DNA of 64,000 nucleotides from Thermoplasmatales archaeon BRNA1 (lineage in GTDB: Archaea > Thermoplasmatota > Thermoplasmata > Methanomassiliicoccales > Methanomethylophilaceae): positions 1,116,001 to 1,180,000 of the forward strand of contig CP002916.1 in NCBI GenBank assembly GCA_000350305.1. The letters run 5' to 3'. Shown here piece after piece: positions 38,127 through 40,036 of this stretch. Every line of letters starts with the position of its first letter. Position 1 is the stretch's first letter. Position numbers and translations under genes: made by a program. Below the pieces are notes generated by a model. The model was given only the letters and a program-made list of their open reading frames with translations, searched no databases and was not told where the DNA came from.

Positions 38127-38906
38127 TCATTCGGGGACTGCTGCCAGACCGGACTTGTGTTTCATACAGGCGACCTGGCGGCGGATCTCCGCTGCCTTTT
38201 CCTTGGAGATGTTCGCACTCTTGGCCATTGCCTCGTCGTCGGCACCTCCCTCCATGAGACTGAGTGCGATGTCGAGGTCGTGATAGGTGATACCCATCTC
38301 CTCCTCGTCGGTCTGACCCTCCCAGAGCCCCGCGGTGGGGACCTTGTCGATGATCTCCTGCGGGACGCCGATGATCTTGGCTAGCTCCCAGACTTGGGTC
38401 TTGTAGATGCCGTGCATGGGCATAACATCCTCGGCGCCGTCGCCGAACTTGGTCATGTATCCCATGAGGAGCTCGCTGCGGTTGGTGGTGCCGACGACCA
38501 GATAGTTCTCCTTCTTCGCCTTGTCGTAGAGGACGATCATGCGGCAGCGGGCCATGATGTTGCCCTTCTCGAGGGGCGCCTCCTTACCCGTCAGGAGCAT
38601 GCCGGAAAAAGCGTCCACGGCAGGCTGTATGCTGACGGTGTTGTAGTTGATCCCCCAAGTCTGGCACATCTTCTTGGTCTGGATATAGTCCTCCGCGGAG
38701 GTGACCGCCGTGGGCATGAAGACGCACAGAACGTTCTCCCCTCCGAGAGCGTCCGCGCACAGCTTCGCGACGACTGCGGAATCGACTCCGCCGCTGATCC
38801 CGACTACCGCTCCCTTCGCCCCCGCTTTCTGAACGGTGGTACGGATGAAATCGGTGAGTTTGTCTGCATCTGACTTGGACATCTGACGGAGGGATCCCTG
38901 TGCCAT
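38127..38906 (-). CDS. nadE: NH3-dependent NAD+ synthetase
   Basis: Final step of NAD synthesis: amidates nicotinic acid adenine dinucleotide. P-loop-like VGISGGVDSAVVAKL; VGTTNRSELLMGYMTKFGDG and PTAGLWEGQTDEEEMG are family motifs. About 259 aa from ATG 38906, chosen because a TATA-like TTTTATTT lies about 28 bp upstream; ATGs at 38939 and a GTG at 38981 are possible. No glutaminase domain on the protein itself; a nitrilase-family gene lies divergently beside it. Confidence 0.92.
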   Translation of the reverse strand: MAQGSLRQMSKSDADKLTDFIRTTVQKAGAKGAVVGISGGVDSAVVAKLCADALGGENVLCVFMPTAVTSAEDYIQTKKMCQTWGINYNTVSIQPAVDAFSGMLLTGKEAPLEKGNIMARCRMIVLYDKAKKENYLVVGTTNRSELLMGYMTKFGDGAEDVMPMHGIYKTQVWELAKIIGVPQEIIDKVPTAGLWEGQTDEEEMGITYHDLDIALSLMEGGADDEAMAKSANISKEKAAEIRRQVACMKHKSGLAAVPE

Positions 38907-39020
38907 GGACAGGGTATCTATCAGATGAAATAAAACCATTTTTAGTCCCTCGGACGCGCAAAATGGATTCATTTTAGGCACCGTCTTTTAGTCTGGCACA
39001 TGTTGCTTTCATAACACGGT

Positions 39021-39050: not shown

Positions 39051-39815
39051 ATGGGAATTAGGATAGCGATATGTCAGATGGGAGACTCGGGAAGCCCCGA
39101 GGATAACCTCAAACGTGCCGAGGGCGCGATCCTTCAGAACGAGGCGGACCTCTACGTCTTCCCCGAACTGTTCCTTTCGTCCTACGACACCACGACCTTC
39201 AACCCCGAGGACACGCCTACCGCCGAGAAACGCCTCCGTCTGCTCTGCGGCGAGAGGGACTGCGCGGTCGCCATCGGCGCGCCCGTCCAGTGGTACAACG
39301 GTGTAACCGATTCGCTTCTTTTCATCACCCCGACGGAGACCTTCAGGTACGACAAGATTTACCTAGCCAACTTCGGCATCTACAACGAAAGCGCCTTCGA
39401 GCCCGGGAAGAGCCCCGCCATCGTCGAGTGGAAGGGCATGAAGATCGGGCTCGAAATCTGCTACGACGTCACCTTCCCGGAGCTCCACCGCTTCTACGCG
39501 ACCCACGACTGCGACATCGTCATCGTCTCCGCCGCGTCTGCGGAACCGTCCAAGAAAGTCCTGATGAACATCCTGCCAACCAGGTCCGTGGAGAACACCG
39601 TGTACACCGTGTACGTCAACTCCATCGGGAAATTCAAGGACACCTAGTTCTTCGGAAGCTCCGGCCTCTACTCCCCCCTCGGAGAGAAGGTCGCGTCCAT
39701 GGGCGAGGAGGACGGAGTCCTCATCACATATGCCGACGAGGCAGTGGTCCAGAACGCACGCACCCAGAGGCCCCAGCTCAGGGACCTCAGGAACGACATC
39801 CTTTGGATCGCCTGA
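39051..39815 (+). CDS. Carbon-nitrogen hydrolase with in-frame amber (pyrrolysine) codon
   Basis: Nitrilase-superfamily amidase, 254 aa if TAG at 39645-39647 is read through. Catalytic triad: Glu in LYVFPELFLSS, Lys in DKIYLANFG, Cys in GLEICYDVTFPEL. The TAG falls at residue 199, directly before FFGSSGLYSPLGE, the conserved strand and turn of the fold, and the same frame runs 55 more codons to TGA at 39813. Stopping at TAG would remove conserved core elements. The simplest reading is pyrrolysine (or another amino acid) at UAG. May supply ammonia in nitrogen or NAD metabolism next to nadE (inference). Confidence 0.85.
39645..39647 (+). other. In-frame TAG codon, candidate pyrrolysine site
   Basis: Single amber codon inside the nitrilase-family gene; coding character continues without a shift on its 3' side. 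No complete gene in the window uses TAG to stop. Confidence 0.8.
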
Positions 39816-39881: not shown

Positions 39882-39965
39882 GCCGAGATAGCCCAGCCCG
39901 GTAAGACGCAAGCCTGGAAAGCTTGTGGGAGTATTCCCTCGGGAGTTCAAATCTCCCTCTCGGCG
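39882..39965 (+). tRNA. tRNA-Ser (GGA)
   Basis: Acceptor GCCGAGA / TCTCGGC, anticodon stem CAAGC / GCTTG with loop CTGGAAA giving anticodon GGA, a long variable arm (GGGAG..TTCCC region) typical of tRNA-Ser, T-arm GGGAGTTCAAATCTCCC. Discriminator G at 39965, CCA encoded at 39966-39968. TATA-like TTTTAATG about 30 bp upstream. Confidence 0.95.
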
Positions 39966-40036
39966 CCATTCTTCTACCTCACTTCCCCGGTTATAACATC
40001 ACATGGTCTTTATCCGACCAGAACTGTTTACCGCCT

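Follow-up and report, generated by a model that had tools for sequence, protein, structure and literature searches.

A nitrilase-family gene of Thermoplasmatales archaeon BRNA1 carries an in-frame TAG that is very probably read as pyrrolysine at a variable site

Does a TAG inside the coding frame of a nitrilase-family gene terminate the protein, or is it a codon for pyrrolysine (Pyl), the 22nd amino acid and a bulky lysine derivative? The question arises in Thermoplasmatales archaeon BRNA1, within a stretch of 64,000 nucleotides (hereafter the window). The organism is a gut methanogen from the bovine rumen and has a genome of 1.46 Mb (PMC5011839). The gene opens with ATG at 39051, passes through TAG at codon 199 and closes with TGA at 39813-39815, all in one frame (Table 1). 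An earlier note, made from the DNA letters of this locus, had described a coding frame and family sequence that continue past the TAG to a proper TGA 55 codons later. Both statements hold. Read through the TAG, the product contains a full CN_hydrolase domain (PF00795; 113.6 bits, cut-off 23.2; E = 1.3e-32; residues 4-237), and homology continues after codon 199. The above-threshold domain and the Glu-Lys-Cys triad E39, K102 and C137 place the protein in the nitrilase superfamily. The same frame, with one TAG inside, was found again independently and is the sole CN_hydrolase match of the genome. A tRNA-Ser (GGA) gene lies at 39882-39968, about 70 bases beyond the nitrilase stop codon.

Table 1 Features of the nitrilase locus, in positions of the window
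Feature	Position	Strand	Remark
CN-hydrolase (nitrilase superfamily) gene	39051..39815	+	254 codons with TAG as sense, TGA end
Amber TAG in frame at codon 199, candidate for pyrrolysine	39645..39647	+	Hypervariable column in homologues
55 codons 3' of the TAG	39648..39812	+	Conservation equal to that 5' of the TAG
Codon of catalytic Glu E39	39165..39167	+	Invariant in alignments A1 and A2
Codon of catalytic Lys K102	39354..39356	+	Invariant in alignments A1 and A2
Codon of catalytic Cys C137	39459..39461	+	Invariant in A1, nearly so in A2
nadE, ammonia-type NAD+ synthase	38127..38981	-	Divergent neighbour of the nitrilase; outside the recoding

Decoding of UAG as Pyl requires a dedicated tRNA and its partner enzymes, and a genome search for pylS, pylT and pylBCD, which the earlier note had proposed as a check, returned the complete set of five genes. 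pylS (262.7 bits; L035:8727-9548, minus strand) shares one cluster with pylC (338.7 bits) and pylD (192.2 bits), while pylB (426.6 bits; G000:C1:442315-443328) lies about 0.55 Mb from pylTSCD. This split layout is common to BRNA1 and Candidatus Methanomethylophilus alvus, where pylB is about 0.7 Mb away from pylTSCD (PMC3941956). A tRNA gene with a CTA anticodon, found by reading the sequence directly 5' of pylS, was identified as pylT; its anticodon-arm core, GTCTCTAAAACCTAGCCAGCGG, recurs unchanged in 10 further genomes of the genus but in none of the 12 genomes searched outside it. Since tRNA-Pyl is missing from the ARAGORN output and its cloverleaf does not emerge from a plain minimum-energy fold, the identity of this tRNA rests on sequence, position and the CTA anticodon. 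RamA also lies in the pyl region, as do two MtbB-type genes and MttB; all three methyltransferase genes are interrupted by an in-frame TAG of their own.

The release factor aRF1 is single-copy (L058:1492-2736, minus strand) and retains intact NIKS and YxCxxxF motifs, so that UAG decoding must rest on competition by tRNA-Pyl. Termination at UAG by aRF1 may persist, and some of the nitrilase product could be a 198-residue fragment. No stable conserved stem-loop was found 3' of the nitrilase TAG (fold z-score -0.28), and Rfam PYLIS gave no match there; its matches were confined to mttB and, at a weak level, mtbB. A cis-acting insertion element at the nitrilase was rejected on these grounds. Competition between tRNA-Pyl and aRF1 agrees with a review according to which Pyl insertion is driven by no specific mRNA context (PMC8211752).

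How TAG is used elsewhere in the genome bears directly on its meaning in the nitrilase. The earlier note had stated that no complete gene in the window ends in TAG; indeed, 58 genes were called, with 51 TGA ends, 6 TAA ends and a lone TAG, that of the nitrilase. We extended the count to 22 stretches, window included, which together cover 483 kb or one third of the genome (1,461,105 bases in total), using a simple gene caller and codon-pair statistics. Among 467 ends of genes of at least 60 aa, 420 were TGA, 40 TAA and 7 TAG. Coding sequence extended in frame beyond all seven TAG ends, as against 41 of the 460 TGA and TAA ends; in these 41, the extension is accounted for by an adjacent gene or by chance. 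The sampled 483 kb thus contains 0 true TAG ends among 467. Of the stop trinucleotides in the sampled DNA, 19.6% are TAG, and base composition therefore does not account for the missing TAG ends. Because every sampled TAG end runs on into coding sequence, TAG acts like a sense codon in this genome.

The seven TAG ends of at least 60 aa belong to methyltransferases, the nitrilase, a GNAT protein, a PHP protein and a thioesterase. With shorter calls included, the sampled 483 kb holds ten in-frame TAGs, distributed over two MtbB genes, MttB, the nitrilase, a GNAT acetyltransferase, PHP, a HAD hydrolase, a 4HBT thioesterase and, with two TAGs, TetR. The TetR-type regulator with its two in-frame TAGs is located at L041:4774-5322.

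In 200 kb from each of two further members of the genus, G011 and G013, true TAG ends were absent, against two and three such ends in the less related genomes G008 and G048. TAG-containing genes of G011 include an epimerase and a Sel1 protein; those of the ISO4-H5-like G013 are MttB and a B12-binding corrinoid protein, which is probably the reported mtaC of ISO4-H5. They match the lists published for M. alvus (Sel-1; PMC4153887) and ISO4-H5 (mttB, mtaC; PMC5011839). For the genus as a whole, we consider it probable that TAG is a plain 62nd sense codon, specifying Pyl and never acting as a terminator despite the UAG-reading motifs of aRF1, and that ordinary genes gain and lose Pyl neutrally. 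Kivenson and colleagues reportedly described such a Pyl code in archaea in 2025.

If the nitrilase is translated through its TAG, the downstream codons should have remained under selection. Nitrilase homologues occur in 95 of the 102 genomes of the taxonomic family, and an internal stop is absent from every orthologous match among them; TAG at codon 199 is present in this one genome only. The only other internal stops among the homologues, one TGA and one TAA, both lie in weak, distant matches, and a candidate internal stop in the L121 homologue was rejected as a normal C-terminal TGA taken in by the match coordinates. Compared with the three closest orthologues, the segments 5' and 3' of the TAG are 64/60, 64/64 and 62/65 percent identical. 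A named relative, at 63%, is Candidatus Methanomethylophilus sp. 1R26. Divergence at the three codon positions is equal on both sides (about 0.25/0.2/0.4-0.47), and the BRNA1 protein keeps all 10 residues (G202, S204, P209, G211, R237, R240, D245, R247, D249 and W252) that an alignment of 17 shows as invariant beyond the TAG. In a neutral walk that placed the observed number of nucleotide differences at random, a stop was gained in the 55 codons in 71-76% of runs, and amino-acid identity as high as observed had a P of about 0.0005 or less. The nitrilase has therefore been under constraint up to recent times.

These data also bear on the possibility that a recent nonsense mutation has turned the gene into an early pseudogene, from which only an inactive, truncated 198-residue protein is made. 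The absence of the TAG from every relative and the canonical motifs of aRF1 fit such an event, as does the predicted fold, whose last strands and helices the truncation would remove. Were the TAG mutation very recent, earlier constraint would leave the same signature as read-through. Against this, the TAG is the single lesion in 254 codons, with neither a second lesion nor the lost constraint expected of a pseudogene, and the family-invariant residues beyond it are intact. The pyl machinery is complete, every other sampled TAG in the genome is also an in-frame sense codon, and the pairing of the nitrilase with its nadE neighbour is conserved across the order. We therefore regard a pseudogene as unlikely. 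More doubtful still is that an error in sequencing or assembly produced the TAG from a sense codon: one base change would be enough, but the genome is a single contig, 99.7% complete, and random errors would generate all types of stop, not TAG alone, nor a genome without TAG terminators.

What, then, would Pyl do at residue 199? In the alignment of homologues at this site, which had also been proposed in the earlier note, the column proved hypervariable and no orthologue had TAG. Orthologues carry V, P, R, S, K, G, E, T, N, A, D or Q, and among the 254 columns the site takes 7th place for variability in the close set; in the wide set it comes 32nd. Modelled by AlphaFold from 38 sequences with Lys in place of Pyl, the protein adopts the complete nitrilase alpha-beta-beta-alpha fold (pLDDT 95.4; pTM 0.93), with mouse Nit2 (2w1v; TM 0.91) as the best PDB match and other amidases among the top-ranking solved structures. 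Residue 199 falls in a small predicted beta-hairpin formed by strands 193-195 and 198-200. According to the predicted fold, truncation at residue 198 would cost the protein three strands and two helices, from 205-207 to 241-245. In sequence, codon 199 comes after all residues of the catalytic tetrad E39, K102, E113 and C137 and lies outside it; the view that the TAG sits close to the active-site fold was thus overstated. For a catalytic Pyl of the methylamine methyltransferase type, a TAG conserved across orthologues and located in the active site would be expected; here the TAG occurs in no orthologue and the column is hypervariable.

The genomic neighbourhood of the nitrilase offers a hint at its function. 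nadE matches stand beside the nitrilase in about 50 related loci of Methanomassiliicoccales and other Thermoplasmata, and this pairing suggests a role for the nitrilase in ammonia supply or NAD metabolism. Other NadE enzymes have a fused glutaminase domain that supplies ammonia. By analogy, a stand-alone amidase could feed ammonia in trans to the ammonia-dependent NadE.

A further reading makes the TAG a regulatory switch, in which full-length amidase is formed only when Pyl, and with it methylamine metabolism, is active, coupling NAD or nitrogen metabolism to methylamine supply. The conserved nadE neighbour is compatible with this idea, a truncated protein would probably be inactive, and Pyl supply is tied by location to methylamine genes. 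A switch, however, needs conservation or regulation, and we saw neither: the TAG is found in no relative, the site is variable, an insertion element was not found nearby, and TAGs in many unrelated genes fit constitutive decoding. We accordingly do not favour a switch and hold it to be very improbable. Near-cognate read-through of UAG as Gln, Lys, Trp or Tyr is the least plausible reading, since the genome has a CUA tRNA dedicated to this codon, together with its synthetase, and needs no other suppressor tRNA.

Taken together, we propose, with a probability of roughly 0.85, that the TAG is read by tRNA-Pyl, so that the nitrilase-family amidase is made in full, with 254 residues, and carries at position 199 a Pyl tolerated at a variable site. 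In this scheme, a point mutation most likely created the TAG in a cell in which Pyl-tRNA was constantly available and TAG hardly or never ended genes; tRNA-Pyl would then decode UAG as pyrrolysine at residue 199, and the TAG would persist because this variable hairpin position tolerates Pyl. The earlier suggestion that UAG is decoded in a non-methyltransferase is thus very probable, given the presence of pylTSBCD, the lack of TAG terminators in the sample and selection past the TAG. The same note had offered two alternatives, a tolerated residue or a switch linked to Pyl supply. The evidence speaks for a Pyl that is neutral and tolerated, at a hypervariable hairpin site after the catalytic residues, rather than for a functional residue or a switch; scattered, unconserved TAGs and the lack of an insertion element argue against the switch.

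Amber-to-Pyl recoding outside methyltransferases is already published for close relatives, and the nitrilase would be a further, ordinary case. It would enlarge by one clean example the set of Pyl proteins that do not serve methylamine metabolism. The genome sample speaks for TAG as a general sense codon in the genus, where annotation with the standard code consequently truncates such genes. The enzyme is conserved, with a proposed Pyl at a tolerant position in one species and standard amino acids at that place in the relatives; it also provides a neutral-site test bed for studying the spread of an expanded codon across a proteome.

Mouse Nit2 (2w1v), a Nesterenkonia amidase (3hkx) and PH0642 (1j31) share the fold and the catalytic Glu-Lys-Cys with the BRNA1 protein, and we know of no amber codon in any of the three. 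In MtmB, MtbB and MttB, UAG is read as Pyl by the same machinery, which is present in this genome; Pyl is catalytic there and the TAG conserved, in contrast to the variable, non-catalytic site of the nitrilase. Methanosarcina Thg1, a tRNA-His guanylyltransferase, is likewise a Pyl protein outside the methyltransferases (cited in PMC8211752) and is unrelated to the nitrilase. Closer to BRNA1, ISO4-H5 has 46 genes with an in-frame amber codon, including mtaC, adenylate kinase and Cas3; the main text does not mention a nitrilase (PMC5011839). Candidatus Methanomethylophilus alvus, of the same archaeal family, resembles BRNA1 in having TAG in conserved non-methyltransferase genes whose homologues elsewhere lack it. 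Sixteen extra Pyl proteins are predicted in M. alvus, TAG accounts for 1.6% of its stops, and its TAG genes outside the methyltransferases include Cas1, DGGGP synthase, MtxX, an acetyltransferase and a Sel1 protein (PMC4153887, Table 7). A nitrilase is absent from that table, and the M. alvus-like G011 has CCG (Pro) at site 199. For M. alvus, Borrel and colleagues proposed that a newly arisen in-frame TAG is tolerated and stable wherever tRNA-Pyl is always working and genes avoid ending in TAG; the neutral-site Pyl decoding that we propose for the BRNA1 nitrilase would follow the same mechanism.
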